From: Blastococcus haudaquaticus
GTDB lineage: Bacteria; Actinomycetota; Actinomycetes; Mycobacteriales; Geodermatophilaceae
Assembly: GCF_900230285.1 (NCBI RefSeq)
Contig: NZ_OCNK01000002.1
Location: forward strand, 310,001 to 374,000
Direction: 5' to 3'
Length of the DNA stretch: 64,000 bases
Both the position numbers and the translations under genes were made by a program. Within the stretch, counting starts at the first letter, position 1; each line of letters begins with the position of its first letter. The notes beneath the pieces were generated by a model that saw nothing but the letters and a program-made list of their open reading frames with translations, ran no database searches and was not told the origin of the DNA. Shown here one piece after another: positions 19,004-35,302 of this stretch.

Positions 19004-19986
19004 GCGACAGCATGACGCGGTCCGTCGACGGATACGCCTTGGGCCGGTTCGACGACGGGGCGGGCCCGTTCACCGGCCTCGTCGCCGGGAACCGGGTGCT
19101 CCGGCTGCAGGACGACGGCCTCGTCAAGGGGCGGGCCACCTACCAGGCCCTGCTCGACGAGTGGCCGGCCGTGGCCCCGCGCCTGGCCGACCTCGCCAGC
19201 GAGGTCGGCCAGGCGGACGGGGTGCCGATCGCCGACCTGGCCGTGCTCGCGCCCGTCGAGCCACGGCAGGTCTTCCAGGCCGGCGCCAATTACCGCTCGC
19301 ACGTCGCCGAGATCATCGTGTCCTCGAAAGAGGTCGACGACCCACGGACGGAGGAGGAACTGCGCCGGCACGCGGAGTCGGTCATGGACGAGACCGCGCG
19401 GACCGGCAGCCCGTTCGTCTTCGTCACCCTGCCCAGCGCGATCTGCGGCCCGGACGACGACGTCCTTCTGCCCCCCGAGGCCGAGCGCGTCGACTGGGAG
19501 GCCGAACTGGCGGTGGTGATCGGCCGCCGGACCCATCGGGTGCCGCGCGAGCAGGCGATGGAGCACGTCGCCGGCTTCACCGTGTGCAACGACGTCAGCG
19601 CCCGGGACCTGCAGTTCCCACCCCAGCACAAGGCGCTCGGTGGCGACTGGCTGCGGGCGAAGAGCCGGCCCACCTTCCTGCCGACCGGGCCCTTCCTCGT
19701 CCCGGCCGACCAGGTGGCCGACCACCGGCAGCTGCGGATCACCTTCGACCTCAACGGGGAGCGCATGCAGGACGACGTCCCGGCCAACATGCTCTTCGAC
19801 GTCCCGGGACTGATCGCGTCGGTGTCCGCGGCCGCCGTGCTGCTGCCCGGCGACCTGCTGCTCACCGGCAGCCCGGCCGGCAACGGCGGCCACTGGAAGC
19901 GCTGGCTCCAGCCGGGCGACGTGATGGAGACGGCCATCGAGGGGCTGGGGGCGCAACGCAACCGTTGCGTGGCCGAGGAGGGGTGA
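19000..19986 (+). CDS. FAA hydrolase family protein, paralogue of 31370-32338
   Basis: The 328-residue protein has the FAA-hydrolase fold: VEPRQVFQAGANYRSH near residue 90, EAELAVVIGR with acidic metal ligands, NDVSARDLQ, and the C-terminal GDLLLTGSPAGNG. It likely hydrolyses or hydrates a ring-cleavage product. The segment VLAPVEPRQVFQAGANYR is identical in the protein encoded at 31370-32338, so the two are paralogues in the duplicated ring-cleavage modules. ATG at 19000 overlaps the enolase stop, and the gene ends inside the GTG of the reductase. Confidence 0.9.
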   Translation: MSDSMTRSVDGYALGRFDDGAGPFTGLVAGNRVLRLQDDGLVKGRATYQALLDEWPAVAPRLADLASEVGQADGVPIADLAVLAPVEPRQVFQAGANYRSHVAEIIVSSKEVDDPRTEEELRRHAESVMDETARTGSPFVFVTLPSAICGPDDDVLLPPEAERVDWEAELAVVIGRRTHRVPREQAMEHVAGFTVCNDVSARDLQFPPQHKALGGDWLRAKSRPTFLPTGPFLVPADQVADHRQLRITFDLNGERMQDDVPANMLFDVPGLIASVSAAAVLLPGDLLLTGSPAGNGGHWKRWLQPGDVMETAIEGLGAQRNRCVAEEG

Positions 19987-20921
19987 CCTCTCCGCCGGTC
20001 GACCGCGGCCGGGACGTCACGGTCCTCGCCGTCGGTCCGGTCGCCGACCGCATCGTCGAGGTCGTCCTCGGGCCGGCGGACGACGCGCCCTTCCCCCGCT
20101 GGGCACCGGGCGCGCACGTGGACGTCGTCCTGCCGATTGGCGTCGCTCGGCCCTACTCGCTCGCCGGGGATCCGGCGGACGCCCGGTCGTGGCGGCTGCT
20201 GGTCGCCCGCTCGGCGCCTGGGGACGCGTCCGCCCACATCCACGACGAGCTACGCCCCGGGGACCGGCTGCGGGTACGGGGACCGCGCCACCTCTTCGCC
20301 CTCGGCGGGGGCGCCCGCTACCTCTTCCTCGGCTCCGGCTCCGGCATCGCGCCGCTGCTGCCGATGGCCCGGTGGGTCGCGGCCGCCCGGATCCATCCGT
20401 GGGCCCTGGTGCACGTCGACCGCTCCGCACGCCACCGCACATTGCGGGAGGAGGTCGCCGCCCTGGGAACGGGCAGTCGCACCGTGGCCACTGCCGACGA
20501 CGCCCTCGCGGCCCTGGCGGACGCAGCACCGGGGACGGCCGTCTACGCGGCGGGCAGCAGCTCCTTCGTTGACGCCGTGGCCGACGCCGCTCCCGAGCAC
20601 GTCGCGCTGAACCGGCAGCGGTTCGACGCTCCCGTCGGGGTGTCGGGTGCAGCCCGTCCTTTCGAGCTCGTGCTCGGCCGGCGCAGAGAGCGGGTCCGCG
20701 TCGAGGCAGGGACGCCGCTCCTGACGGCTCTGCACCAGGCCGGGGTCGACGTGCCGGTCTCCTGCGGCGCCGGCATCTGCGGCGCCTGCGTCGTCGGTGT
20801 CCTCGAGGGCACGGTCGAGCACCGGGACTCGATCCTGACCGCCGCCGAGCGGGCCGCCGGTTCCCGCATCGTCAGCTGCGTGTCCACGGCAGCCGGGGAC
20901 CGACTCGTCCTGGACGTGTGA
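19983..20921 (+). CDS. Phthalate-dioxygenase-reductase/VanB-like flavin and 2Fe-2S oxidoreductase
   Basis: The 312-residue protein has an N-terminal flavin-binding barrel with RPYSLAG, an NAD-binding region with GSGSGIAPLLPMA, and a C-terminal plant-type ferredoxin domain with SCGAGICGACVVGV plus a later Cys in IVSCVS. That order matches the reductases of class IA Rieske oxygenases (phthalate dioxygenase reductase, VanB). Its normal partner, a Rieske oxygenase, is absent from the window, so it either serves one encoded elsewhere or another oxidase. GTG at 19983 overlaps the upstream stop; it closes the operon. Confidence 0.9.
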   Translation: MTSPPVDRGRDVTVLAVGPVADRIVEVVLGPADDAPFPRWAPGAHVDVVLPIGVARPYSLAGDPADARSWRLLVARSAPGDASAHIHDELRPGDRLRVRGPRHLFALGGGARYLFLGSGSGIAPLLPMARWVAAARIHPWALVHVDRSARHRTLREEVAALGTGSRTVATADDALAALADAAPGTAVYAAGSSSFVDAVADAAPEHVALNRQRFDAPVGVSGAARPFELVLGRRRERVRVEAGTPLLTALHQAGVDVPVSCGAGICGACVVGVLEGTVEHRDSILTAAERAAGSRIVSCVSTAAGDRLVLDV

Positions 20922-20938
20922 CCTGGCTCATGCGCGCC

Positions 20939-20998
20939 GTGGATCGCAGCGATAGCCGGGAATCATTTCCGCCCGGCTCCGCACGTTCCTAGCGTCGG
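20939..20998 (+). promoter_or_regulatory. Promoter copy B with shared operator (twin of 15639-15698)
   Basis: GTGGATCGCAGC at 20939-20950, CATTTCCG at 20964-20971 and CCTAGCGTCGG at 20988-20998 repeat copy A with the same spacing. It sits just after the reductase stop and drives the dioxygenase operon. No LysR gene is adjacent, so control from the regulator at 14649-15599 is inferred. Confidence 0.65.
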
Positions 20999-21035
20999 TC
21001 GGGACAGCAGTCGCACGTCACACCGGAGGGGCGCC

Positions 21036-21965
21036 ATGGGCAGCCACATCGCGAAGCTCGGATACGTCGGGGTGCAGACCCCTCGTTACGAGGAGTTCCG
21101 TACCTGGGGCCCGGAGGTCCTCGGCTGCATGCTCGGTCCTGACGGCGCGGACGGCGCCGTCCGCCTCAAGATCGACGACGCGGACTACCGGCTCTCCTTC
21201 CACCCCGGCGATGACTACCGGTTCCTCTACGCCGGCTGGGAGGTGCTCAACCACCGCGACCTGGACGCCGCGGTCAAGCGCCTCGAGGACGCCGGCGCCA
21301 AGCCCCGCTTCGCCGACCAGCAGCTCGCCGACCAGCGCGGTGTCGACAAGCTGGTGCAGTTCGAGGACCCTTTCGGGCAGCCCCTCGAGCTGTTCTGCTA
21401 CCAGGAGTCGAACTACTCGTTCTGGCACCCGCCGCGGCCGCACGCCGGCTTCGTCACCAAGGAGCAGGGCCTCGGCCACGTCGTGTTCGCGGTGCCCGAC
21501 GCCCGCAAGGCGGTCGACTTCTACATCGACGCGATGGGCTTCATCCCCAGCGAGATCCTCAAGATGAACGAGCCGCTCGGTGAGATGTGGTTCCTGCGGG
21601 TGAACCCCCGCCACCACAGCGTCGCCTTCCTCGAGGTGCCCAACTCGGTCGGCCTGCACCACGTCTACCTCGAGTCGGTCGACCTCGACGACGTCGGCTA
21701 CTCGTACTACGACGTGCTGGGCGGCGACGCCAACCCCGACCTCCAGATGGCGTTCGGCCGGCACATCGGCGACCAGGTCATCTCGTACTACATCCACACC
21801 GCCGGTGGCTTCATGATCGAGTACGGCTGGGGCGGCCTCGCCATCGACGACATGAGCAAGCGCTCGCCCAACAACCTCAACTTCCGCAACGGCAAGCGGC
21901 AGGAGATGTGGGGCCACAAGTTCCGCTTCCAGCCCAACGAGGCCGTCCACCCGTACCAGCCCTGA
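21036..21965 (+). CDS. Type I extradiol ring-cleavage dioxygenase (BphC-like)
   Basis: The 309-residue two-domain vicinal-oxygen-chelate protein would cleave a catecholic ring next to the hydroxyl groups using Fe(II) and O2. The metal ligands are visible at His148 (GLGHVV), His209 (LHHVYLE) and Glu262 (MIEYGWGG). The second-shell residues of BphC enzymes are also present as His194 (RHHS), His243 (GRHIGDQ) and Tyr252, so the enzyme should be active. The start follows GGAGG. It is followed by two flavin monooxygenase genes. A paralogue lies at 30415-31353. The true substrate is not readable from sequence. Confidence 0.93.
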   Translation: MGSHIAKLGYVGVQTPRYEEFRTWGPEVLGCMLGPDGADGAVRLKIDDADYRLSFHPGDDYRFLYAGWEVLNHRDLDAAVKRLEDAGAKPRFADQQLADQRGVDKLVQFEDPFGQPLELFCYQESNYSFWHPPRPHAGFVTKEQGLGHVVFAVPDARKAVDFYIDAMGFIPSEILKMNEPLGEMWFLRVNPRHHSVAFLEVPNSVGLHHVYLESVDLDDVGYSYYDVLGGDANPDLQMAFGRHIGDQVISYYIHTAGGFMIEYGWGGLAIDDMSKRSPNNLNFRNGKRQEMWGHKFRFQPNEAVHPYQP

Positions 21966-21996
21966 CCCGGTACCGCTGAGGACGAAGGAGTCCGCC

Positions 21997-23127
21997 GTGC
22001 CTGCCGTGAACAACGTCCTGGTCGTGGGTGCCGGAGCCGCCGGTACCGCCACCGCCATCCTGCTCGCCGAGGCCGGGGTCGCGGTCGACCTCGTGGAGAT
22101 CAAGCCCGAGGTCTCCGCACTGGGGTCCGGGATCACCCTGCAGGGAAACGCGCTGCGGGTGCTACGGCAGCTGGGGGCCCTCGACGAGTGCCTCGAGTAC
22201 GGCTTCCCGTTCTCGCAGCTGGTGATTCGGGTGCCCGACCCGGCGGCGACGATCGTCGCCCGCGTCGACGACATCCCGTTCGGGGGCGCAGACCTGCCGT
22301 CGACCATGGGCATGTACCGGCCCGAGCTGGCGCGGATCCTCATGGATCGCGCCGATCGGGCCGGGGTGAAGACCCGCTTCTCCACCACCATCGAGTCCCT
22401 CGACCAGGACGACGACGGCGTCGACGTCACGCTCTCCGACGGCTCCGCGGGTCGCTACGACGTCGTCGTCGGCGCCGACGGGCTGCGGTCGTGGACCCGC
22501 CGGATGCTCGAGATCCCGCTGGAGACCCGATCGGTGGGCATGGGCGCGTTCCGGATGTTCGGGCCGAAGCCGGCGGACATCACCGAGTTCCACGCCATCT
22601 TCGGCGGGCCGTCGTACATGGCTCTCGTGTGTCCCACCTCGGAGACGACGGCCTACTGGTCGCTGGTGGAGCCGGCCCGGGACCGGACGACCCAGACGCC
22701 CCAGGAGCGGCTCGCGGACTTCCTGGAGCTCAGCCGCCCGTACCACGGGCCCTGGGACGAGGTGCGGGACTCGTTCACCGACCCGGCGAACCTGAACTAC
22801 ACGTGGTTCGAGCACCACCTGCTCGACGCCCCGTGGAACCGCGGCCGGGTGGTGCTCATCGGCGACGCGGTGCACACCTGCCCGCCGACCATCGCCCAGG
22901 GCGCGGCGATGGGCTTCGAGGACGCCGTCGTCCTCGCCGAGCTGCTGACCACCCGCGACCGGGTCGACGACGAGCTGTGGGACGCGTTCACCGCCCGCCG
23001 CTTCGACCGGGTGAGCACCGTCGTCGAGGCCTCGATGCAGATGGCGCAGTGGAACCTCGACCACGTCCAGGGCGACGTCCCGGGCGTGACCCGCCGCGTG
23101 GCGGCCGCCGTGAGCACCCCCGCATGA
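21997..23127 (+). CDS. FAD-dependent aromatic monooxygenase (FMO-A, copy 1)
   Basis: The 376-residue class A flavoprotein hydroxylase has the FAD motif VVGAGAAGTATA at residues 9-20, the DG motif VVGADGLRSWTRR, and the GD motif VVLIGDAVHTCPPTIAQGAAMG. These enzymes hydroxylate aromatic rings with NAD(P)H and O2. GTG 21997 follows GAAGGAG. It sits 31 bp after the dioxygenase. A close paralogue at 29252-30382 shares long stretches such as GSGITLQGNALRVLR, showing that the module was duplicated. It likely makes the catechol cleaved by the neighbouring dioxygenase. Confidence 0.92.
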   Translation: MPAVNNVLVVGAGAAGTATAILLAEAGVAVDLVEIKPEVSALGSGITLQGNALRVLRQLGALDECLEYGFPFSQLVIRVPDPAATIVARVDDIPFGGADLPSTMGMYRPELARILMDRADRAGVKTRFSTTIESLDQDDDGVDVTLSDGSAGRYDVVVGADGLRSWTRRMLEIPLETRSVGMGAFRMFGPKPADITEFHAIFGGPSYMALVCPTSETTAYWSLVEPARDRTTQTPQERLADFLELSRPYHGPWDEVRDSFTDPANLNYTWFEHHLLDAPWNRGRVVLIGDAVHTCPPTIAQGAAMGFEDAVVLAELLTTRDRVDDELWDAFTARRFDRVSTVVEASMQMAQWNLDHVQGDVPGVTRRVAAAVSTPA

Positions 23128-23147
23128 CCTCCGACGAAGGGACAACG

Positions 23148-24359
23148 ATGTCTTCCAGCACGCCTGGCCCCCGGGGCCGGGTCGCCGTCCTCGGCGGCGG
23201 CCCGGCCGGCATGGCCACCGCGCTGTCGGTGCACGGGGCGGGCCATGAGGTGGCGATCTTCGAGCGCTACCCCGAGGCCCGCCCCGCCGGGAACGTGCTC
23301 AACCTCTGGCCACCGCCGCTCAAGGCGTTGCGCCTGATGGGCGTGGACACCGAGGACCTGGGGGCACCGTGCCAGACGGAGTTCCGCAGCAGCAAGGGCA
23401 GGGTGCGCGCCGTGGTCAGGTCCGCACCCGAGGTCGTGGAGCAGTACGGCAGAGGTGGCGGCTTCATCGGCCTGCTCCGGCCCGAGCTCTACGAGCGCAT
23501 GCTGGCGGCGCTGCCGCCGGGGGTGCTCCGCACGAACCAGCTGGTCGAACGGATCGAGCAGGACGACCGCGGGGTGACGCTGTACTTCGCCGATGGCACG
23601 ATCCACGAGGCGGACGTGCTCGTCGGCGCCGACGGGATCAACTCGCTCGTCCGCAGGACGCTGTGGGGTGAGACGCCGATCCGCGAGCACCGGCTGCACA
23701 CCATCGCCGGGTTCACCTTCGCCGACGACATCGGCGGCGAGACGGGCATGTGCGTGATCAGCCACGGCCGCCGCGTCCAGGGCAGCTGGACCTCGATCCG
23801 CCACAAGGGCCGGAGCGGCTACCAGTGGTGGGTGCTCGAGGCCACCGACCCCGAAGCGCCGGCGCCCACAGACCTGCACGCCCGGGCCACGGAGCTCGGC
23901 CGGGAGTTCCTGCACCCCCTCCCCGACCTCATCGAGCGCACCGAGCCGGAGAACGTGCAGCGCTGGGTGCTCCGCGACCGCGGCTACCTCGACCAGTGGT
24001 CGAAGGGGCGGATCACGCTCGCGGGCGATGCAGCGCATGCCACGTCGCCGTATGCCGCCTACGGCGCGGGCATGTCGATCGAGGACGGCTGGTTCATCGG
24101 CCGCGCGCTCGAGGGTGTCGACCTCACCGACCTGGCCGCCGTACGCCAGGCACTGCAGTCCTACGAGGAGCCCCGCAAGCCGCACACGAAGTTCCAGGTG
24201 GACATGGCCTACCGCAACGGTCAGATGTTCCACCACGCCCCGCGTCCGCTGCAGCCCATCCGGGACCTCGTCTTCGACCGCACGCCGTTCCTGCAGAAGG
24301 TGGTCGGCGACACCAACCCGAAGGAGATCAACAAGCAGTTGGCGCTCATCACCGACTGA
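23148..24359 (+). CDS. FAD-dependent aromatic monooxygenase (FMO-B, copy 1)
   Basis: The 403-residue flavoprotein monooxygenase belongs to a different subgroup from FMO-A. It has VAVLGGGPAGMATA at the N-terminus, LVGADGINSLVRR as DG motif and ITLAGDAAHATSPYAAYGAGMSIED as GD motif. The segment LNLWPPPLKALR is shared with the protein encoded at 34097-35302. Start ATG 23148 is preferred because GAAGGGA lies about 7 nt upstream; ATG 23124, overlapping the upstream stop, is a second choice. It is the last gene of the dioxygenase operon; 130 bp separate it from the next LysR gene. Confidence 0.92.
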   Translation: MSSSTPGPRGRVAVLGGGPAGMATALSVHGAGHEVAIFERYPEARPAGNVLNLWPPPLKALRLMGVDTEDLGAPCQTEFRSSKGRVRAVVRSAPEVVEQYGRGGGFIGLLRPELYERMLAALPPGVLRTNQLVERIEQDDRGVTLYFADGTIHEADVLVGADGINSLVRRTLWGETPIREHRLHTIAGFTFADDIGGETGMCVISHGRRVQGSWTSIRHKGRSGYQWWVLEATDPEAPAPTDLHARATELGREFLHPLPDLIERTEPENVQRWVLRDRGYLDQWSKGRITLAGDAAHATSPYAAYGAGMSIEDGWFIGRALEGVDLTDLAAVRQALQSYEEPRKPHTKFQVDMAYRNGQMFHHAPRPLQPIRDLVFDRTPFLQKVVGDTNPKEINKQLALITD

Positions 24360-24446
24360 TGGCGCTTCCCGGGCCTGCCAGTGGCCCCTTACCGCCGCTG
24401 CTGACGCGCACTCACGGCCGCTCGACGGAAAGCAGCCAACGCCGGG

Positions 24447-24480
24447 GGACAGCCTGTCCAGGCACATCGATTGGATCGAT
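24447..24480. promoter_or_regulatory. Two dyads before the LysR gene at 24490, probable autoregulatory operator
   Basis: GGACAGCCTGTCC (24447-24459) is a perfect dyad. ATCGAT-TGG-ATCGAT (24466-24480) is a second one, ending 9 bases before the ATG. The second recurs as TATCGAT-TCT-ATCGATA at 25420-25436 upstream of the next operon, which suggests one regulator binding both. Confidence 0.6.
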
Positions 24481-24489
24481 ACTGCAGCG

Positions 24490-25407
24490 ATGGACCTGGC
24501 TCGCCTCGATCTGAACCTGCTCGTCGCGCTGGACGCGCTGCTGCAGCAGCGCAGCGTCAGCAAGGCTGCGGTGCAGACCGGTGTCGGGCAGCCGGCGATG
24601 TCCTCCTCGCTCGCCCGCCTGCGTCGACACTTCGGTGACGACCTGCTGGCCCGCGTGGGGAACGAGTACCACCTGACGCCTCTCGCGCTGGAGCTCCGGG
24701 AGCGGGCGCGGATGGCTCGGGTAGGGCTCGAGCGGGTGTTCGGCGCCCACGACGAGTTCGACCCGGCATCCTCGGATCGTGAGTTCACCCTGCAGGTCAG
24801 CGACTACGGGGAAGCGGTGCTCGGCTCCCCCGTCGCCGATCTGCTTGCCGATGCCGCCCCCAGGGCACGGCTGCGCCACGTGGCCAACACGGCGCGCCCC
24901 CTGGACTCGTCCGACCCGACACTGCTGGGCACCGACCTGGTGGTCATGCCGCACGGCTTCGTGACCGACCTGAGGCACGACGACCTGTACCGCGACGAGT
25001 GGGTCTGCCTCGTCTCCACGGCGAACACCGCGGTCGGTGATGCGCTCACCCTCGACCAGTTGCGCGCGCTGCCGTGGGTGGTCACCTTCCACAGCTCGGC
25101 GGGGACGACGCAGGGCATGGCCGCCCTGCGGCTGATCGGGGTGGAGCCGGACGTGCGGGTCGTCACCGAGCACTTCCTGGGCCTGCCCGGGCACGTCGCC
25201 GGCAGTGAGCGGATCGCTCTGATGCAGCGCCGACTGGTCGACACCCTGCCGCCGCGCGACGACGTCCGGGTACTGCCCTGTCCGTTCCCCGCCGGCGTCC
25301 TGACGGTGGCGATGTGGTGGCACCCGGTCCACGACGACGACCCGGCCCACGCGTGGTTTCGGGCCCTCGTGAGGCGCGCCTCCCGCACGCTCAAGCCGCT
25401 CCCCTGA
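24490..25407 (+). CDS. LysR-type transcriptional regulator
   Basis: The 305-residue regulator has the LysR helix-turn-helix (LDLNLLVALDALLQQRSVSKAAVQTGVGQPAMSSSLARLRR) and a NodD-like effector domain starting FTLQVSDYGEAVLG. It is transcribed in the same direction as, and just upstream of, the monooxygenase/demethylase operon. Its own promoter region and that operon's both carry an ATCGAT-N3-ATCGAT dyad, so it probably controls itself and the operon at 25588-29074. No strong ribosome site precedes ATG 24490. Confidence 0.92.
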   Translation: MDLARLDLNLLVALDALLQQRSVSKAAVQTGVGQPAMSSSLARLRRHFGDDLLARVGNEYHLTPLALELRERARMARVGLERVFGAHDEFDPASSDREFTLQVSDYGEAVLGSPVADLLADAAPRARLRHVANTARPLDSSDPTLLGTDLVVMPHGFVTDLRHDDLYRDEWVCLVSTANTAVGDALTLDQLRALPWVVTFHSSAGTTQGMAALRLIGVEPDVRVVTEHFLGLPGHVAGSERIALMQRRLVDTLPPRDDVRVLPCPFPAGVLTVAMWWHPVHDDDPAHAWFRALVRRASRTLKPLP

Positions 25408-26766: not shown

Positions 26767-27746
26767 TGCGCGCCTACGTGCTGCCGACCGAGGGCGTTGC
26801 GCCGGTATTCAGCGACGTCCCGCCGCCCGAGCCGGCCGACGGCGAGGTCCTGGTCCGGGTGACCGCGTCGTCGGTCAACCCGCACGACGCCATGGTCGCC
26901 AGCGGCGGCGCCGCTCGCTACATGACTTACCACTACCCCGTCGTGCTCGGCAGCGACTTCGCCGGCACGGTCGAGGCCCTCGGTGCCGGTGTCGACGACC
27001 TTGCGGTGGGCCGGCGGGTGTTCGGGCTGGTGCGCGAACTGGTCGCCGCGCGCGGCTCGTTCGGCGAGCTGGTCGCCGTCCCGCGGGACTGGGTCGTGCC
27101 CGTCCCCGACGGCGTGGAGGACGCAGCCGCCGGGGCGCTGGGACTGGCTGCGCTCACGGCGCTCCGCTGCGTCGAGGCGGTCGCCCCCGCCCCGGGCGAG
27201 GTGGTGCTCGTCAACGGCGCCACCGGAGGCGTCGGCAGCTACGCCGTGCAGATGCTCGTGGCCCGCGGCGCGACAGTGGTGGCCACCGCACGACCGGGCG
27301 AGGAGGAAAGGCACGTCCGGGACATGGGTGCGACCGACGTCGTCGACTGGTCCGCCGGCGACCTCGCCGAGCGCGTCCGCTCCCTGCACCCCGACGGCGT
27401 CGCCGCGATCGTCGACCTGGTCAACCGCAACACGGACACGTTCACCGCACTCGCCACCCGGGTGCTCGCCCGCGGGGGCCGGGTCGCGTGCACCGGTCAC
27501 GCGGCCGACCCCGACCGCCTGCCCGGCGTCCGCGCCACGAACGTGCGCGCCGAGGTCGACCAGGACGCACTTCGCACCATCGCCGACCTCGTCGGTGCCG
27601 GCCGGCTGCACGCACCGATCACCGCCACCTTCCCCTTCGACGAGGTCGCTACAGCCTTCGAAACGCTCCGGACGGGGGCCGTCGGCAAGCTCGCGATCGA
27701 GCAAACCACCTCCTCAGCCCCCCTCCCAGAACAGAGGACGACGTGA
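26766..27746 (+). CDS. Zinc-free medium-chain dehydrogenase, NADPH:quinone oxidoreductase-like
   Basis: The 326-residue protein is a medium-chain dehydrogenase/reductase. GroES-like N-terminal domain signs include VNPHDAM and VLGSDFAGTVEALG. The NADP-binding motif NGATGGVGSYAVQML follows at about residue 150. The catalytic zinc ligands of alcohol dehydrogenases are absent, as in quinone oxidoreductases and enoyl reductases. It may reduce a quinone or unsaturated carbonyl intermediate from the neighbouring monooxygenase. ATG 26766 overlaps the upstream TGA; the stop overlaps the GTG of the demethylase. Confidence 0.87.
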   Translation: MRAYVLPTEGVAPVFSDVPPPEPADGEVLVRVTASSVNPHDAMVASGGAARYMTYHYPVVLGSDFAGTVEALGAGVDDLAVGRRVFGLVRELVAARGSFGELVAVPRDWVVPVPDGVEDAAAGALGLAALTALRCVEAVAPAPGEVVLVNGATGGVGSYAVQMLVARGATVVATARPGEEERHVRDMGATDVVDWSAGDLAERVRSLHPDGVAAIVDLVNRNTDTFTALATRVLARGGRVACTGHAADPDRLPGVRATNVRAEVDQDALRTIADLVGAGRLHAPITATFPFDEVATAFETLRTGAVGKLAIEQTTSSAPLPEQRTT

Positions 27747-29074
27747 ACCTTCCCTCCCTGCAGAGCGGCATCGACCAGGCCGGTAGCCCGGTGAAGCTCC
27801 TCTGGAAGCCGGGCACGCCGCCGGTCACCGTGCCGGTCGTGCCTCCGGAGATCGCCGGCTGGCGCGCGGAGCAGCGCGCCTGGTACGACGGCGTCGCCTA
27901 CCTCGAGCTCTCCCACCACATGGCCGACCTGTTCGTGGAGGGCCCGGACGCCCTGCGCCTCCTCTCCCGGGTGGGGGCCAACAACTTCGAGAACTACGCC
28001 ATCGGTCAGGCCAAGCAGTTCATCGTCGTGAACGAGGAGGGCCTGCTCGTCCAGGACGGCATCCTGACCCGCCTGGCCGAGGACCGGTTCAACCTCGCCG
28101 GCATCGGCACCGCGGGCACCTGGGTGCAGCACGAGGCGGAACGAGGCGACTACGACGTCACGCTGACCGTCGACCCCGACTCCGCGTTCCGGGGCGGCGC
28201 CGACCCTGTTCTCTTCCGGTTCCAGATCCAGGGCGCCAGGGCGATGGCCTTCCTGGAGTCCGTCTTCGGCGGGCCGATGCCGTCGGTCAAGTTCTTCCAC
28301 TCGGGCGAGGTCTCGCTGGCGGGCAGGACGTTCCGGGCCCTCCGGCACGGCATGACCGGCCAGCCCGGTTTCGAGTTCTTCGGGGCGTGGGAGGACTACG
28401 CGCCGGTCCGCGAGGCGCTGCTGGCAGCAGGTGAGCAGTTCGGCCTCGTCCAGGTGGGAGGGCTGGCCTACTACACCGCCGGCGTCGTCGGCGGTTGGCT
28501 GGCGACTCCGGTGCCGGCCATCTACACGTCGGAGAGCACGGCTGCTTTCCGCAGCTTCACCAGTCTGTTCTCGTACGAGGGTCAGGGCGCTCTTCGGGGC
28601 AGCTTCTACTCGGACGACATCTCGGACTACTACCACTCCCCCTACGAGCTCGGCTACGGCCGCTCGGTCTCGTTCGATCACGACTTCATCGGGAAGGACG
28701 CCCTCGCCGCGGCGAAGGACAAGGTGCACCGGCAGAAGGTCACCTTGGTCTGGGACGCGGACGACGTGGCGGCGGTGTTCGGGCCGGAGCGGGACTTCTT
28801 CCTGAGCTACACCAAGGACCGTGTGGAGAAGGACTCCCGGCTCATCGGCCTGTCCGAGTACGCCACGTACATCGACCCCGCGGGGGCCATCCACTCCATC
28901 GCCACCATCGACCGAGAGCACGCGGAACCTGGCACGGAGGTCGAGCTGGTCTGGGGCGAGCACCCAGGACCCGGAACCGCGCCCGACGCCGACCTCGGCT
29001 TCTCGCGGATCAGGGCGACGGTGCAGCCCGCCCCCTACGACGACTACGCCCGCACGTCCTACCGAAAGTCCTGA
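27743..29074 (+). CDS. Aminomethyltransferase-family protein, LigM/DesA-like aromatic O-demethylase
   Basis: The 443-residue protein has the GcvT-like fold: LSHHMADLFVEGPDALRLLSRV, then NNFENYAIGQAKQFIVVNEEGLLVQDG and LGYGRSVSFDHDFIGKDAL. The first two segments resemble the tetrahydrofolate-dependent O-demethylases LigM and DesA, which move the methyl of vanillate, syringate or 3-O-methylgallate to folate. This suggests the island handles a methoxylated aromatic. The folate-recycling genes that accompany ligM elsewhere (metF, ligH) are not in this window. GTG 27743 overlaps the upstream stop. A sarcosine-type or other methyl donor cannot be excluded. Confidence 0.78.
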   Translation: MNLPSLQSGIDQAGSPVKLLWKPGTPPVTVPVVPPEIAGWRAEQRAWYDGVAYLELSHHMADLFVEGPDALRLLSRVGANNFENYAIGQAKQFIVVNEEGLLVQDGILTRLAEDRFNLAGIGTAGTWVQHEAERGDYDVTLTVDPDSAFRGGADPVLFRFQIQGARAMAFLESVFGGPMPSVKFFHSGEVSLAGRTFRALRHGMTGQPGFEFFGAWEDYAPVREALLAAGEQFGLVQVGGLAYYTAGVVGGWLATPVPAIYTSESTAAFRSFTSLFSYEGQGALRGSFYSDDISDYYHSPYELGYGRSVSFDHDFIGKDALAAAKDKVHRQKVTLVWDADDVAAVFGPERDFFLSYTKDRVEKDSRLIGLSEYATYIDPAGAIHSIATIDREHAEPGTEVELVWGEHPGPGTAPDADLGFSRIRATVQPAPYDDYARTSYRKS

Positions 29075-29251: not shown

Positions 29252-30382
29252 TCAGGCAGGCCTGCTGGTCAGAACGGCGATCCGGCCCATGAGTGCGGGG
29301 ACGTCGCCCCGCTCGTGCGCCAGCTGCCAACGCGCGATCTGCACCGAAGCCTCCACCACCGCCTTCACCCGCTCGTAGCGCCGTTCCGAGAAGCTCGTCA
29401 GCAGCGCGTCGTCGACGGCGTCGGCACCGATGAGCAGCTCGGCGAGCACCGACGCGTCCTCGAGCGCCAACGCGGCGCCCTGGGCCAGGGTGGGCGGGCA
29501 GGTGTGCACGGCATCGCCGACGAGGACGACGCGGCCGCGATGCCACGGGGTGTCGAGCAGGTGCTCCTCGAACCACGTGTAGTTGATCTGCTCGGGGTCG
29601 GTGATCGACTCCCGGATCTCGTCCCAGGGCCCGTGGTAGGCCTCGGTCAGCCCGCGGACGATCGAGACCTTCTCCTCGTCGGTCACGGTCGTGCGGTCCT
29701 GGGCGTCCTCGACGATAAAGGCGTACAGCGACGACTGCGAGGTCGGGGTGACGCCGGCGATGTACAGCGGGCCGCCATAGGTGGCCTCCGAGCTGACGAC
29801 CTCCGCCGGCCGCGGCGCGAAGACCCGCCAGATGCCCATGCCGACCGAACGCGTCTCCAGCGGCACGTCCAGCAGCCGCCGGGTCCACGAGCGCAGTCCG
29901 TCGGCCCCGACCACCAGGTCGTAGCGGCCGGCGGAGCCGTCGGTGAACCGGACGTCGACCCCCGAGTCGTCCTGCGTCAGCTCCTGCAGCGTGGTGGAGA
30001 AGCGGAGCTTGACGCCGGCCCGCTCGGCCCGGCCCATGAGCACGCGGGCCAGGTCGGGGCGGTACATGCCCATGCTGGCGGGCAGGTCGGGACCGCCGGA
30101 CCGGTGCTCGGCGACCCGGGCCACGACTGTCGCCGCCGGGTCCGGCGCCCGGATCACCAGCTCCTCGGCGGGGTATCCCTGCGCGAGGCACTCGTCGAGC
30201 ACGCCCAGCTCCCGGAGCACGCGCAGCGCGTTGCCCTGCAGGGTGATGCCGGATCCGAGCGCAGTCACGTCGGGCTTGATCTCGACCAGGTCGACGCTCA
30301 CACCGGCGTCGGCCAGCAGGATGGCGGTGGCGGCGCCGACGACGCCGCCACCGACGACCAGGACGTTCTCCACGGCTGCCAT
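29252..30382 (-). CDS. FAD-dependent aromatic monooxygenase (FMO-A, copy 2)
   Basis: The 376-residue protein has exactly the length of FMO-A copy 1 and shares its motifs: VVGGGVVGAATA, ALGSGITLQGNALRVLR, VVGADGLRSWTRR and VGDAVHTCPPTLAQGAALALEDA. It would hydroxylate an aromatic ring with NAD(P)H and O2. ATG 30382 follows GAAGGAG. It is the last gene of the minus-strand operon that begins with the FAA hydrolase at 32338. Differences in the middle of the protein (the VFAPRPAEVVSSEATYGGPLYIAGV region) suggest the two copies serve different substrates. Confidence 0.92.
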   Translation of the reverse strand: MAAVENVLVVGGGVVGAATAILLADAGVSVDLVEIKPDVTALGSGITLQGNALRVLRELGVLDECLAQGYPAEELVIRAPDPAATVVARVAEHRSGGPDLPASMGMYRPDLARVLMGRAERAGVKLRFSTTLQELTQDDSGVDVRFTDGSAGRYDLVVGADGLRSWTRRLLDVPLETRSVGMGIWRVFAPRPAEVVSSEATYGGPLYIAGVTPTSQSSLYAFIVEDAQDRTTVTDEEKVSIVRGLTEAYHGPWDEIRESITDPEQINYTWFEEHLLDTPWHRGRVVLVGDAVHTCPPTLAQGAALALEDASVLAELLIGADAVDDALLTSFSERRYERVKAVVEASVQIARWQLAHERGDVPALMGRIAVLTSRPA

Positions 30383-30414
30383 GCGAGGACTCCTTCGTCC
30401 GGGATGGTGGAGGC

Positions 30415-31353
30415 TCAGACCGGCGGTGCGACGAACAGCCCGCGGTCGACGTCGTTGAAGCTCTCCTTGGCGACCAGCTCCTCGAACGGGTTCGCCGTCC
30501 CCCACTGGTCCTGGTTCTCCTCCTTCGAGACGTCGTAGACGCTCGGGTGCCAGGCGTCCTCGTCGAGCTTCTCCAGCTCGGTCGTGTACTCGATGGTGTT
30601 GCCGTGCGGGTCGAGGAAGTAGGAGAAGGTGTTGTCGCCGGCCATGTGGCGGCCCGGGCCCCACACCATGCGGGTACCGGCGCGCAGGAGCCGGCCGGTG
30701 CCGCGCATGTACTCGTCCAGGCCGCGCATCTCGAACGAGACGTGGTGCAGCGAGACGTGCGGTCCCTTGGCGATCGCCATGCTGTGGTGCTGCGGGTTGC
30801 ACCGCATGAACTTCATCAGCTCGCCGGCGTACGGGTGGATCAACGAGTCCGAGAGCGCGAAGTCCAGGTGCTGCTCGTAGAAGGCCTGGGTCCGGTTGGG
30901 GTCCGGCGAGTTGATGACCACGTGGGACAGGCGGACCGGGATCGCCTCGCGCTCCTCGATCCGGCGGTGCTGCCGGGTGGCGACGTCGGCCGAGACCTCG
31001 ATGGTGCGGCCGTCGACGTCGAAGAAGCGGAAGCCGTACCCGCCACCGGCCGTCTGGAGCACGCCGGGCTCGCTGATCAGCTGGACGCCGGCGGTGCCGA
31101 GGCGCTGGGCGAGCGCGTCGACGTCGGCTGCTGAACCGGCGCCGTAGGAGATGAGGTCGAGGCGCTTCTCGGCGTCCTTGCGCAGCCGGACGATGTACTG
31201 CTCCGGCGACCCCTGGGCGGCGAGGTAGACGAGGCCGTTCTCCTCACCGACCGGGGTCAGGCCCCAGAGGGTCGTGTAGAACTCGCGCTGCTTGTCGAAG
31301 TCGGGCACGGCCAGGTCGACGTGCCGCAGGTGGGTGATCAGGCGGTCGCTCAT
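30415..31353 (-). CDS. Type I extradiol ring-cleavage dioxygenase (copy 2)
   Basis: The 312-residue protein is a two-domain vicinal-oxygen-chelate enzyme. All six key residues of BphC-type enzymes can be placed: metal His (LSHVV), metal His (LHHVSFE), metal Glu (TIEYTTELE), plus the His of QHHS, the His of GRHMAG and the Tyr of SYF. The N-terminal half (HLRHVDLAVPDFDKQREFYTTLWGL) differs strongly from the dioxygenase at 21036, so the pair is not a recent gene copy although both sit beside an FMO-A. ATG 31353 lies 16 bp downstream of the FAA-hydrolase stop. Likely substrate: a catechol made by the pathway monooxygenases. Confidence 0.92.
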   Translation of the reverse strand: MSDRLITHLRHVDLAVPDFDKQREFYTTLWGLTPVGEENGLVYLAAQGSPEQYIVRLRKDAEKRLDLISYGAGSAADVDALAQRLGTAGVQLISEPGVLQTAGGGYGFRFFDVDGRTIEVSADVATRQHRRIEEREAIPVRLSHVVINSPDPNRTQAFYEQHLDFALSDSLIHPYAGELMKFMRCNPQHHSMAIAKGPHVSLHHVSFEMRGLDEYMRGTGRLLRAGTRMVWGPGRHMAGDNTFSYFLDPHGNTIEYTTELEKLDEDAWHPSVYDVSKEENQDQWGTANPFEELVAKESFNDVDRGLFVAPPV

Positions 31354-31369
31354 CGGTGTCTCCAGTGGT

Positions 31370-32338
31370 CTATTCGTCGACGCAGCGGTTGGCCTGCGCG
31401 CCGAGGCCGGTGATGGTCGAGTCCATGCGGTCGCCGGCGCGGAGCAGGCGTCCCCGGGGCAGGCCGTTGCCGGCGGGGCTGCCGGTGAGCACCAGGTCAC
31501 CGGGCAGCAGGGTCGCGACGCTCGAGCAGTGGGCGATGACGTGCGCGACGTCGAAGAGCATGTCCTTGGTCGACTCGTCCTGCATGACCTCGCCGTTCAG
31601 CCGAAGGGTCAGGCGGAGGTCTCCGGGATCGGGCACCGCCGCGCGCGGGACCACGACCGGCCCGGTGGGCAGGAAGGTCGGCGAGTTCTTCGCCGCCAGC
31701 CAGTCCGCGCCCAGGGCGGGGGCGTCCTTGCGGAAGATCCGCTCGCGCAGCGTGAGGTCGTTGACGATGGTCCAGCCGGCGACGACGTCGAGGGCGTCCT
31801 CCGGGGACACCCGGCGGGCGCGGCGGCCGATCACCGCGGCGAGCTCGAGCTCCCAGTCCGGCTGCTTGCCGTCCGACGGCAGGACGACGTCGTCGTACGC
31901 GCCGCAGATGGCACTCGGGAGGCCCTGAAAGACGTACGGCGGGTGCTCCAGGCGGGTGTCCATCTCCGCCGCGGCGTCTGCCCGGACCTGCTCGACCGTC
32001 CGGCCGTCCGAACCATCGGCGTGCGCGACGGCGATGTCGATGACGTGCGTGCGGTAGTTGGCGCCCGCCTGGAACACCTGCCGCGGCTCGACCGGCGCGA
32101 GCACGGTCAGTCCTGCCAGCGGCTGCCAGCCGTCGCTGCTCCCGGCCAGCTCGTCGAGCACCGGCAGCGCGTCGTCCCAGCGGTCGAGCAGCTGCCGCGT
32201 CGAGGAGGGCTGCCCCAGCGCCGAGGAGGCGGACAGGTCGAGGGCGCGGTCCCCGGAGACGAGCGCGGGGAACGGCCGCCCGTCGGCAGAGAGCCGGGCG
32301 AGGGCCCAGGATCCGGCGTGGTCGATGGTGGTTGGCAC
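31370..32338 (-). CDS. FAA hydrolase family protein, paralogue of 19000-19986
   Basis: The 322-residue protein has VLAPVEPRQVFQAGANYRTH and DWELELAAVIGRRA with the acidic ligands, plus GDLVLTGSPAGNG. The usual NDxSARD motif reads NDLTLRER here, so the metal-binding Asp is kept but the following active-site residues differ from the copy at 19000. It probably acts on the ring-cleavage product of the dioxygenase encoded downstream. GTG 32338 is preferred over ATG 32350 because a -10 GATGCT (32351-32346) overlaps that ATG and lies 7 bp from the GTG, so the mRNA should be leaderless. Confidence 0.87.
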   Translation of the reverse strand: MPTTIDHAGSWALARLSADGRPFPALVSGDRALDLSASSALGQPSSTRQLLDRWDDALPVLDELAGSSDGWQPLAGLTVLAPVEPRQVFQAGANYRTHVIDIAVAHADGSDGRTVEQVRADAAAEMDTRLEHPPYVFQGLPSAICGAYDDVVLPSDGKQPDWELELAAVIGRRARRVSPEDALDVVAGWTIVNDLTLRERIFRKDAPALGADWLAAKNSPTFLPTGPVVVPRAAVPDPGDLRLTLRLNGEVMQDESTKDMLFDVAHVIAHCSSVATLLPGDLVLTGSPAGNGLPRGRLLRAGDRMDSTITGLGAQANRCVDE

Positions 32339-32345
32339 GGTGGCT

Positions 32346-32393
32346 AGCATCAGCCGCCCGGTGGGCCCGGTGGAAACGCCGCTTCCGTATGCC
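32346..32393 (-). promoter_or_regulatory. Predicted promoter/operator of the second ring-cleavage operon
   Basis: On the minus strand, GGCATACGGAA starts at 32393 and the TTTCCA -35 ends at 32371. A -10 GATGCT lies at 32351-32346 after 19 bp. The 23 bp 32371-32393 match the amidohydrolase promoter (8634-8656) at 17 positions, and the -10 hexamer is identical. Confidence 0.5.
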
Positions 32394-32440
32394 TGCCCAT
32401 CCGGCGGGCTTATGGCCCAGCTCACAGAGGAGTGCCGACG

Positions 32441-33376
32441 GTGGAGCTGCCCAGCCTGGACCTCAACCTCGTCGTCGTCCTCCACGCCCTGCTGGAGGAG
32501 CGCAACGTCACGCGCGCCGGCGAGCGGGTCGGGCTGAGCCAGCCGGGCACGAGTGCGGCACTGGCCCGGCTGCGCCGCCACTTCGACGACCCGCTGCTGG
32601 AGCGGGTCGGCACGGTGTACGAACTCACCCCGCTCGCCCAGGCCCTCCAGGGGCAGCTGGGCTCGACGATGGAGCAGCTGCAGCGGGTGCTGGCCGCCCA
32701 GCCGCGCTTCGACCCGCTCACCACCGACCGGCGGTTCACGGTGGCGTGCTCGGACTCCGTGCTCACCATGCTGGGACCCGCACTGGTCGCCGCGGTCACC
32801 CGCGCGGCGCCACGCGCGAGTCTCGACTTCCGCTCGCTGGACAAGCGGGTCGCCACCGACCCCCTGGCGCTGCTCCGCGACGTCGACGTGCTGATCGTGC
32901 CGAGGGGACTCTTCTCGCTGCCCGACGTGCCGAGCGTGGAGCTCTACCGCGACCGCTGGGTGTGCGCGACGTGGCGTGGCAACACCGCGGTCGGCGACCG
33001 GCTCACCCTCGAGGACGTCGCCCGCGCCCGGTGGGTCATGCCCTTCCAGGAACTCCTCATGGCCTCTCCCGCCGACGCCGCACTCGCGACGCTGGGCGTC
33101 GACCGCCACTGCGCGGTGCGTGTGGAGAGCTTCAGCGCGCTCGACCGCCTGGTGGTCGGAACGGAACTGCTGGTGCTCTTCCACGAGCGGCTCGCCGGCG
33201 ATCTCACGGCTGGAGACCTACGGGTGGTCCACCTCCCGGTCCAGCTGCCGCCGATCACCGAGACGGCCTGGTCGCACCCCAGCCGTCAGCTCGACCCCGG
33301 GCACCGCTGGTTCCTCGATGCCGTCACCGAGGCGGGCGCAGGGCTGGTCCAGCCGGGGACGTCGGCCAGCAGGTAG
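32441..33376 (+). CDS. LysR-type transcriptional regulator
   Basis: The 311-residue regulator has the LysR DNA-binding region LDLNLVVVLHALLEERNVTRAGERVGLSQPGTSAALARLRR and an effector domain starting FTVACSDSVLTMLG. GTG 32441 follows AGGAG by about 9 nt (GTG 32432 is less well placed). It diverges from the FAA hydrolase/dioxygenase/FMO-A operon, its likely target. Its last 91 bases overlap the 3' end of the TetR gene on the other strand. Confidence 0.92.
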   Translation: MELPSLDLNLVVVLHALLEERNVTRAGERVGLSQPGTSAALARLRRHFDDPLLERVGTVYELTPLAQALQGQLGSTMEQLQRVLAAQPRFDPLTTDRRFTVACSDSVLTMLGPALVAAVTRAAPRASLDFRSLDKRVATDPLALLRDVDVLIVPRGLFSLPDVPSVELYRDRWVCATWRGNTAVGDRLTLEDVARARWVMPFQELLMASPADAALATLGVDRHCAVRVESFSALDRLVVGTELLVLFHERLAGDLTAGDLRVVHLPVQLPPITETAWSHPSRQLDPGHRWFLDAVTEAGAGLVQPGTSASR

Positions 33377-33993
33377 CGGGCTGCGGTGTTCCCGAGGTCG
33401 GCGACGAAGCGCTCGTCGTCGACCGGCGTCGGCGTCGCGAACCCCGGCCCGTACGCCACCCGGATGATCGACGTGGCGAAGACCGTCCCGAAGCACGAAC
33501 GGACGGCGGCCTCCGGGTCGTCGTGGCGGATGGCCCGGCGGGCGGCCAGCACCACCTGGACGAAGCCCTCGCCCAGCTCCTGGCTGTAGCGCGAACCCCG
33601 TCGGCGCACCTCGTCGTGCACGGCCGAGATCAGGACGACGGCGCGCAGGAACCGCTGGTGGCGGAAGGAGATCCCCACCATCTCGGCGACGGCGGCGCGC
33701 ACCAGCTCGGCGGGCGGCAGGCCGGCCCACCGCTCCTCGTCGGCGAAGAGGTGCTGCTCCTCGCGCAGCCGGCCGACGCCGTGCTCGTAGACGGCCAGGA
33801 AGAGCGCGTCCTTGCTCGTCGTCCGGGCGTAGATGGCGGTGGGTGCCACGTGCGCCCGCTCGCACACCGCCGCGATGGTGAACGCCTCGTAGCCGCCGTC
33901 CTCGAGGAGGGCCACGCCCGCGTCGAGGACGCGGTTCCACGCCTCCCGGCTCCGCTGCTGCTTGGGCGGTCGCACCTCGAGCTCGGCATCCAC
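33286..33993 (-). CDS. TetR-family transcriptional regulator
   Basis: The 235-residue regulator has the TetR DNA-binding domain at residues 12-60 (RSREAWNRVLDAGVALLEDGGYEAFTIAAVCERAHVAPTAIYARTTSKDALF) and a helical ligand domain. It diverges from FMO-B copy 2, and the shared region carries a large two-part palindrome overlapping a promoter. It probably represses itself and that gene until a pathway compound binds. Its 3' end overlaps the convergent LysR gene by 91 bp, and the tail after about residue 215 is low in structure. Confidence 0.92.
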   Translation of the reverse strand: MDAELEVRPPKQQRSREAWNRVLDAGVALLEDGGYEAFTIAAVCERAHVAPTAIYARTTSKDALFLAVYEHGVGRLREEQHLFADEERWAGLPPAELVRAAVAEMVGISFRHQRFLRAVVLISAVHDEVRRRGSRYSQELGEGFVQVVLAARRAIRHDDPEAAVRSCFGTVFATSIIRVAYGPGFATPTPVDDERFVADLGNTAARYLLADVPGWTSPAPASVTASRNQRCPGSS

Positions 33994-34013
33994 GTGCCCA
34001 TCCTCTCCGATGC

Positions 34014-34074
34014 TTGACAGAACAGTGACGCGCGCTACAGTTCGGCGCTAACTGTAGCGCTCGCTACTGTTCTG
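34014..34074. promoter_or_regulatory. TetR operator: nested palindrome over a -35/-10 promoter
   Basis: Inner arms GCGCTACAGTT (34032-34042) and AACTGTAGCGC (34050-34060), and outer arms CAGAACAGT (34018-34026) and ACTGTTCTG (34066-34074), all share the same centre at 34046. The plus-strand promoter TTGACA (34014-34019) with TACAGT (34036-34041, 16-bp spacer) lies within it. Binding would block transcription of FMO-B and probably of tetR. Confidence 0.8.
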
Positions 34075-34096
34075 CTCGAACACACCGAGGTGCTCG

Positions 34097-35302
34097 ATGA
34101 CCCCTTCCTCACCCTCCTCCCGTGGCCGGGTCGCCGTCCTGGGTGCCGGACCGGCCGGCATGGCCGCCGCCCTCGGGGCGATCAAGGCCGGGCACGACGT
34201 CGTCGTGTACGAGCGCTACCGGGAGGCCCGTCCTGCGGGCAACATCCTGAACCTGTGGCCGCCGCCGCTGAAGGCCCTGCGCGCCCTCGGGGTGGACACC
34301 CACGACCTGGGCGCACCCACGCACTCGGAGTTCCGCAACGTCCGCGGCAAGGTGCGTGTGGACGTGAAGCTCGACGAGGTCGTGAAGGCGGCATTCGGCG
34401 GCGGGTTCATCGGCCTGCTCCGGCCCGAGCTGTACGAGCGCATGCTCGCCGCGATCCCGCCGGGCGTGATCCGGTTCGACTCGCAGGTGGAGCGAATCGA
34501 GCAGGACGAGCGGGCGGTCGCGCTCCACTTCGCCGACGGCAGCACCGCCGAGCACGACGTGCTGGTCGGCGCCGACGGCATCGACTCCCTCGTCCGCCGC
34601 ACGCTGTGGGGCGACGCGCCCAAGCGCGAGCACCGGCTGCACATCTTCGGCGGCTTCACCTTCGCCGACGTGGAGGGCACGATCCCGAACAAGTGCGTGC
34701 TCAGCCACAGCCGGACGACCCAGGGCAGCTGGACGTCGATCCGCCACAACGGCCGCGACGGGCACCAGTGGTGGGTCCTCACCTCGACCGACCCGGACGC
34801 CCCCGCACCGGCGGACCTCAAGGCGACGGCGACCGAGCTGGCCGAGGAGTTCCCGGCGCCGCTGCCCGGGCTGATCGCCGCGACGGAGGCCCAGAACGTC
34901 CAGCGCTGGGTGCTCCGCGACCGCCCGGCGCTGAAGCAGTGGTCGAAGGGCCGCGCCACGCTGGTCGGGGACGCCGCCCACCCGACCTCGCCGTACGCGG
35001 CCTACGGGGCCGGCATGTCCATCGAGGACGGCTACTTCCTCGGCGTCGCCCTGCGGGGGGTCGACCTGACCGACCTGGCCGCCGTCGCGGCAGCGCTGCA
35101 GTCCTACGAGGAACCGCGCAAGCCGCACACCGCCAAGCAGGTCCAGATGGCGTACGTGCTCGGCAAGGTCTTCCACCACGCGCCTGCGCCGCTGCGGCCG
35201 CTGCGCGACTTCTTCTTCGACCACACGCCGTTCCTGCAGAAGATGGCCGGCGACTCCAACCCCCGCGAGATCAACAAGCAGCTCGCCCTGATCGAGGACT
35301 GA
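34097..35302 (+). CDS. FAD-dependent aromatic monooxygenase (FMO-B, copy 2)
   Basis: The 401-residue flavoprotein hydroxylase is a clear paralogue of the protein encoded at 23148-24359. It shares LNLWPPPLKALR, GFIGLLRPELYERMLAA, LVGADGIDSLVRRTLWG, GDAAHPTSPYAAYGAGMSIEDG and EINKQLALI at the C-terminus. It would hydroxylate a phenolic or aromatic acid with NAD(P)H and O2. ATG 34097 follows GAGG. Expression is probably held off by the divergent TetR protein through the palindrome 27-80 bp upstream. A small ABM-fold gene follows in the same operon. Confidence 0.92.
   Translation: MTPSSPSSRGRVAVLGAGPAGMAAALGAIKAGHDVVVYERYREARPAGNILNLWPPPLKALRALGVDTHDLGAPTHSEFRNVRGKVRVDVKLDEVVKAAFGGGFIGLLRPELYERMLAAIPPGVIRFDSQVERIEQDERAVALHFADGSTAEHDVLVGADGIDSLVRRTLWGDAPKREHRLHIFGGFTFADVEGTIPNKCVLSHSRTTQGSWTSIRHNGRDGHQWWVLTSTDPDAPAPADLKATATELAEEFPAPLPGLIAATEAQNVQRWVLRDRPALKQWSKGRATLVGDAAHPTSPYAAYGAGMSIEDGYFLGVALRGVDLTDLAAVAAALQSYEEPRKPHTAKQVQMAYVLGKVFHHAPAPLRPLRDFFFDHTPFLQKMAGDSNPREINKQLALIED

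Follow-up and report, generated by a model that had tools for sequence, protein, structure and literature searches.

The divergent control region of tetR and FMO-B2, located in the 64,000-nt stretch of Blastococcus haudaquaticus DNA analysed here (the window), very probably comprises two tandem 22-bp operators, O1 and O2, each most likely bound by one dimer of the TetR-type protein. The two genes are encoded divergently with 103 bp between their starts (tetR at 33993, FMO-B2 at 34097), and the earlier note on this DNA had rightly recognized a TetR-family gene beside this second copy of FMO-B. The features of the region are as follows:

33286-33993, minus strand: TetR-family regulator of 235 aa with a GTG start codon; it presumably binds O1 and O2 and controls its own gene.
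34014-34019, plus strand: -35 hexamer TTGACA of the predicted FMO-B2 promoter; a hexamer matching in at least 5/6 positions is found upstream of O2 in 47/49 loci compared.
34018-34074, no strand: overall palindrome of 57 bp (centre 34046, 23/28 pairs matching), interpreted as a side effect of the tandem arrangement of two operators.
34021-34042, no strand: predicted operator O1, AACAGTGACGCGCGCTACAGTT, centre 34031.5, covering the -35/-10 spacer and the -10 hexamer.
34036-34041, plus strand: predicted -10 hexamer TACAGT, part of the right O1 half-site and 16 bp away from TTGACA.
34050-34071, no strand: predicted operator O2, AACTGTAGCGCTCGCTACTGTT, centre 34060.5, directly downstream of the -10 hexamer, in the expected transcription start region.
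34097-35302, plus strand: FMO-B2, FAD monooxygenase (FAD_binding_3, 401 aa), the presumed main target.

The earlier note described a 57-bp palindrome with two pairs of perfect arms sharing the centre 34046, and both pairs are located where such a structure places them (11 bp: 34032-34042 and 34050-34060; 9 bp: 34018-34026 and 34066-34074). The 23 matching pairs of 28 are the top palindrome score of the window and exceed what shuffling produces: when the 103-bp intergenic region was dinucleotide-shuffled 2000 times, 23 pairs were never reached (the largest value was 20), and 40 shuffled whole windows gave at most 21. The same bases contain four half-sites, which read outward are GCGTCACTGTTC, GCGCTACAGTTC, GCGCTACAGTTA and TCGCTACTGTTC, with alternating orientation (minus, plus, minus, plus); if neighbouring half-sites are paired, they form two tandem 22-bp palindromes, O1 and O2, 29 bp apart from centre to centre and separated by a 7-bp gap. 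The segments 34021-34042 and 34050-34071 are thus likely to be two neighbouring copies of one predicted repressor-binding site, with the 22-bp consensus AACNGTAGYGNNCRCTACNGTT, to which O1 matches in 16/18 positions, the departures lying mainly in its left half. Allowing up to 3 mismatches, the pattern AACWGTAGCGNNCGCTACWGTT (2 mismatches in O1) identified only O1 and O2 in the whole 4.51-Mb genome, and at this threshold the search revealed no further place belonging to a same-genome regulon. Since tandem copies of a palindrome automatically yield a larger palindrome about their midpoint, the nested appearance needs no extra cause. The hexamers TTGACA and TACAGT, 16 bp apart and with 10/12 consensus bases, are the sole promoter-like match in 33940-34140, and the palindrome does cover the predicted FMO-B2 promoter, as had been claimed; of the two hexamers said to lie inside it, however, only TACAGT does so, while TTGACA overlaps it by 2 bases only.

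The regulator matches the N-terminal helix-turn-helix domain TetR_N (PF00440, E-value 2.2e-11, 43.8 bits against a cut-off of 24), and its AlphaFold model is helical, with a mean pLDDT of 90.9. Comparison of the model with the PDB reported 77 chains at E-value <=0.001, and the best 50 are, to judge from their titles, TetR-type regulators; KstR, EilR and EthR are among the close structures, with 16-21% identity. EthR chains head the comparison (5mym_B: Z 15.7, rmsd 2.8, 194 aligned), but other TetR-family proteins reach Z 14.5-15.5 and values within 1 are tied, and because the top scores are shared by many TetR-type proteins the match names the fold, not the function. The sequence search against the PDB gave 31 matches at E-value <=0.01, none of them named EthR, and the best NCBIfam match was the ScbR family, at 32.9 bits far below its cut-off of 150. 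Residues of the DNA-binding domain such as P51, Y55, R57 and K61 are invariant among 40 aligned TetR sequences. At 235 aa the window TetR is the longest of those compared, the other 48 proteins stopping at 229 aa or earlier, and its residues from about 211 onward have low confidence in the model; this C-terminal extension looks like the result of a lost stop codon. For FMO-B2, the PDB sequence matches are led by 6-hydroxynicotinate 3-monooxygenase.

A search with the TetR protein identified 52 loci in Blastococcus, Modestobacter, Geodermatophilus, Klenkia, Streptomyces, Lentzea, Amycolatopsis and others, and in 41 of them an FMO homologue (tblastn, E-value 1e-10) is encoded divergently, within about 0.7 kb upstream of tetR. 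The comparison comprised 49 rows, namely 48 of these loci and the window (L001 and L002 are the window's own genome); L022, L040, L052 and L054 were left out because the DNA upstream of tetR lacks a site or the TetR hit is poor. An O2-type site with a score of at least 15/18 is present upstream of tetR in 49/49 loci, a count that holds partly by construction, since it rests on picking the best-scoring place within 320 bp upstream of tetR, and the scoring consensus was itself built from these loci (of the two sites in L017, the one nearer FMO was used as O2). For this reason whole genomes were also searched. Of the 112 genomes searched from the window's family (Geodermatophilaceae), 14 contain the motif at <=1 mismatch and 16 a TetR homologue: the motif is found in 14/16 genomes with TetR versus 0/96 without it, and TetR and FMO adjoin it in 13/13 new motif loci. 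Genomes G041 and G054 encode TetR and have weaker sites only (16/18 and 15/18, respectively); counted by locus, all 18 TetR loci in the 16 genomes have a site of at least 15/18. The family set and the 52-locus set overlap largely and are not independent (14/18 family TetR loci carry a site identical to one among the 52 loci, most of them from the same species), so that the new information consists of the 96 genomes without TetR. As a background figure for chance rarity, the exact motif was found among 396 genomes across the phylum (Actinomycetota) only in the window's own.

The site is also retained with TetR in six loci with no FMO hit (L026, L027, L029, L030, L041 and L044; the TetR proteins of the first two are identical). 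In L040, an 18/18 site (1223-1244) precedes an ORF unlike FMO (1285-2325), which in turn precedes tetR on the same strand, and TTGACA lies upstream of the site at 1180-1185; perhaps the same repressor and operator serve another target gene there. Since the motif tracks TetR in the family and persists in L040 and in the six loci without an FMO hit, the site most likely belongs to TetR. The proposal that another regulator, one of the two LysR proteins of the window, uses it instead could appeal to the LysR gene that adjoins tetR, but the motif follows TetR in the family and LysR sites (T-N11-A) differ in kind from the TetR-type operator seen here, which makes this highly improbable. Counting against the link to TetR, L022, with a good TetR homologue (70% identical), has neither a site of at least 14/18 nor an FMO-B homologue in the locus; a second TetR-like ORF and another FAD-monooxygenase-like ORF, judged by eye, adjoin. 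Neither L052 nor L054 has a site of at least 14/18 in the locus, but in both the TetR match is incomplete or weak. Of 11 loci looked at, 10 have a small ORF of about 92-105 aa separating FMO from the operator (L014, L024, L035, L037, L038, L042, L045, L049, L051 and L053). In L049 it encodes an ABM domain (PF03992, E-value 9.6e-17), the other nine having been judged by eye, and it may be a first operon gene that is missing in loci of the window's type.

The second operator is optional. A second site of at least 13/18, located 22-48 bp upstream of O2, is present in 18/49 loci, while O2 stands alone in 31/49; only 0.26% of shuffled segments (n=9800) reach the same threshold. The -35 hexamer was defined, regardless of O1, as whichever sequence 23-50 bp upstream of O2 best matches TTGACA; counted from its first T, O1 begins 7 bp further on in 18/18 two-site loci. 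The spacing from O1 to O2 is 29 bp in 15/18 and 28, 30 and 33 bp in L013, L031 and L032, respectively, where the length changes are located in the gap between the operators. Because the 7-bp register is constant in 18/18 while the spacing to O2 varies, it seems to be the promoter, rather than a fixed contact between dimers, that places O1, although the 29 bp shared by 15/18 loci could reflect dimer-dimer contact instead of ancestry or promoter geometry. A TANNNT hexamer provided by the O1 half-site 16 bp from the -35 hexamer is found in 16/18 two-site loci versus 3/29 one-site loci with a -35 hexamer of at least 5/6, a comparison that is partly circular, since the operator itself contains that hexamer.

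These observations bear on the reading proposed in the earlier note, according to which two TetR dimers occupy the nested arm pairs about 34046 cooperatively and keep FMO-B2 unusually tightly silent, and which we consider quite improbable. The symmetry about 34046 is exact in the window, and the 29-bp spacing common to 15/18 two-site loci would suit such an arrangement, but the symmetry is gone elsewhere: the 34046 axis has on average 17.5/28 pairs in the 15 two-site loci with 29-bp spacing, 7.23/28 in the 31 one-site loci and 5.0/28 in the three two-site loci of other spacing, whereas the O2 dyad retains a mean of 8.42 to 9.33 of 11 pairs in all three locus groups (49 loci). At the far ends of the 9-bp arms, 3 bp (CAG/CTG) fall outside the operators and, by eye, are asymmetric in the other two-site loci printed; moreover, the outer arms seem too distant to be contacted by one dimer, and O1 is fixed relative to the -35 hexamer and not to O2. 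Since 29 bp correspond by simple arithmetic to ~2.8 helical turns, two dimers would face different sides of the DNA. Nesting as the organising symmetry has accordingly been abandoned, for the same bases form two tandem dyads, and it is these dyads, not the 34046 axis, that recur in relatives. What survives of the two dimers is their number, which the two operator-like sites make plausible in the window; their likely centres are 34031.5 and 34060.5 rather than the nested arms, and the second site is present only in 18/49 loci.

How O1 originated may be considered against the same set of loci. The possibility that one-site loci generally retain O1 as a decayed remnant was rejected, as the 22-mer at -35+7 averages 6.52/18 in them (n=29), compared with 6.62 for the best other offset. 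Two loci counted as one-site, L006 (11/18) and L048 (12/18), have their best match in the same -35 register and may carry traces of a site. A quick TetR tree (49 rows) calls for at least 6 changes between one-site and two-site states, a number as low as this being obtained in 0/500 label shuffles; the starred branches force only 1 change. As a tentative and rather doubtful idea, we entertain that operators were born inside the promoter: because the half-site CTACNGTT includes a usable -10 hexamer (TANNNT), the -35/-10 region could turn into a second full operator with the promoter kept. This may have happened more than once, in the same 7-bp register to TTGACA, with the larger palindrome as a by-product.

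The sequence comparisons show two operator-like sites, a conserved O2, an optional O1 in a constant position relative to the -35 hexamer, and a motif that co-occurs with this TetR; binding, dimer stoichiometry, repression, autoregulation, a ligand and the ancestral number of sites are matters of inference. The TetR-type protein (33286-33993) would bind O1 and O2 with one dimer each. O2 would be the core site, covering and blocking the region where FMO-B2 transcription presumably starts, while O1 would be an extra site built into the promoter; since its right half-site CTACAGTT provides the -10 hexamer TACAGT, 16 bp from TTGACA, the repressor would compete with polymerase for these bases. In the absence of inducer both tetR and FMO-B2 would be repressed, until TetR is released by a small molecule, a plausible candidate being an aromatic compound that the pathway consumes or produces. 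Occupation of O1 and O2 would probably be independent or weakly coupled, with the second site raising occupancy and putting repression on the -10 hexamer. In Streptomyces, according to an excerpt of PMC3511530, 5/5 tested TetR-type regulators located <200 bp from a divergent gene repressed that gene; the distance between tetR and FMO-B2 (103 bp) is under 200 bp, and we count this in favour of repression. The "tight silence" of FMO-B2 put forward in the earlier note is a guess. On the minus strand, no conserved -35 hexamer of a tetR promoter was found in the 49 loci, and if an O2 half-site is taken as the -10 hexamer for tetR, the best -35 match is <=3/6 in 43/49 loci.

In the FMO-B2 transcript, O2 would come close to the 5' end, and its halves can pair, which raises the alternative that the palindrome acts as an RNA hairpin in the leader of FMO-B2 or tetR. 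Against this, the ten outer O2 pairs of the 49 loci display little preference for G-U (76 non-Watson-Crick cells: 27 G-T, 21 A-C and 28 neither; a weak test), and no terminator-like site was found in 33940-34140, so that we regard a role in RNA as extremely improbable.

Analysis of the genomic neighbourhood concerns two further features:

32432-33376, plus strand: LysR-family regulator, converging on tetR, with a 91-bp overlap with the tetR 3' end.
23148-24359, plus strand: FMO-B1 (copy 1), 71% identical to FMO-B2 (BLASTP, compared from 23151), with no operator-like site adjoining.

FMO-B1 belongs to a run of genes on the same strand with a LysR gene just downstream, and nothing around it reaches 12/18 between 21202 and 25054; the nearest matches are at 21201 (12/18) and at 25055 (14/18, inside the LysR gene). 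The earlier note had contrasted a TetR-controlled copy 2 with a copy 1 in a LysR-type operon. The lack of an operator-like site near FMO-B1 and the LysR gene downstream of it agree with this, but since a LysR gene (32432-33376) also adjoins tetR, the contrast is only partly valid. The tail-to-tail overlap of that gene (plus strand) with tetR (minus strand) spans 33286-33376. The window seems to contain two similar sets of aromatic-catabolism genes (18916-25407 and 29252-35302), both with an FAA hydrolase, a glyoxalase/dioxygenase-type protein, an FMO of type A, an FMO of type B and a LysR regulator; the second set, FMO-B1 and both LysR proteins were assigned by Pfam, the FMO-B and LysR pairs by BLASTP and the remainder of the first set by eye. 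The aromatic cluster also includes a folate-binding GCV_T-domain protein (27737-29074), which is perhaps a tetrahydrofolate-dependent O-demethylase, and a DoxX-like protein (PF13564; 35805-36284) is encoded downstream of FMO-B2 on the same strand.

Altogether, this is an ordinary TetR-type control region, for which the comparison supplies a motif as well as a conserved partner gene; mildly surprising is that the second operator is optional and apparently positioned by the promoter. The analysis provides a concrete 22-bp motif and a likely repressor for a TetR/flavin-monooxygenase pair present in many Actinomycetota. Once its ligand is identified, the operator/TetR pair could be developed into a sensor, the one-site and two-site promoters form a natural series for measuring the value of a second operator, and the case is a caution that "nested palindromes" may be tandem operators.

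Among the best matches listed in a search of the open-access literature, nothing fitted on the operator, the TetR/FMO pair or aromatic regulation in Blastococcus. In the tetR/tetA region of Tn10, tetO1 and tetO2 are about 30 bp apart. As in the window, a TetR-type repressor gene is divergent from its target, with two palindromic operators in short intergenic DNA (excerpts of PMC3037858 and PMC3511530); there the operators control both tetR and tetA, and here two like palindromes lie over the predicted FMO-B2 promoter. The Tn10 operator has 15 bp (excerpt of PMC3511530) versus 22 bp here, and the sequences differ. The target in Tn10 is a pump and here a flavin monooxygenase, and, unlike in Tn10 tet, the second operator is optional across relatives. 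For tetO1 and tetO2, the part of PMC3037858 that deals with them reports no indication of cooperativity, and an excerpt of PMC11686294 describes TetR as binding the two independently. The variable spacing in the 18 two-site loci likewise leans toward independent binding of O1 and O2, and with a spacing not strictly kept and this precedent of independently bound operators, the cooperativity proposed in the earlier note finds no support.

EthR of Mycobacterium tuberculosis is a precedent in the other direction, so that some cooperativity may yet occur here: it is a TetR-family repressor divergent from a monooxygenase gene (EthA) that, in the excerpted text of PMC5403819, octamerises cooperatively on its operator. 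EthR chains also lead the structural comparison described above, but this lead is a tie with other TetR-family proteins, and the identity to the window TetR in structural alignments is 16-18%. EthA is a Baeyer-Villiger enzyme, of another type than FMO-B2, which is an FAD_binding_3 protein.

The ScbR family, the best though far sub-threshold NCBIfam match of the window TetR, is the kin of CprB. Two dimers per 22-bp operator, as in CprB and QacR, and hence four dimers over the region, would be another arrangement, which we judge unlikely. CprB and QacR are members of the TetR family, and the CprB site, which is bound in this way, has 22 bp (excerpt of PMC4150764), in agreement with the operator length found here. 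The same excerpt, however, has two dimers on one non-palindromic site and ties cooperativity in this class to such sites, whereas in the window there are two separate palindromes and O2 is strongly palindromic. RolR from Corynebacterium glutamicum (resorcinol) is likewise a TetR-type regulator, and one of aromatic catabolism (excerpt of PMC3086911).
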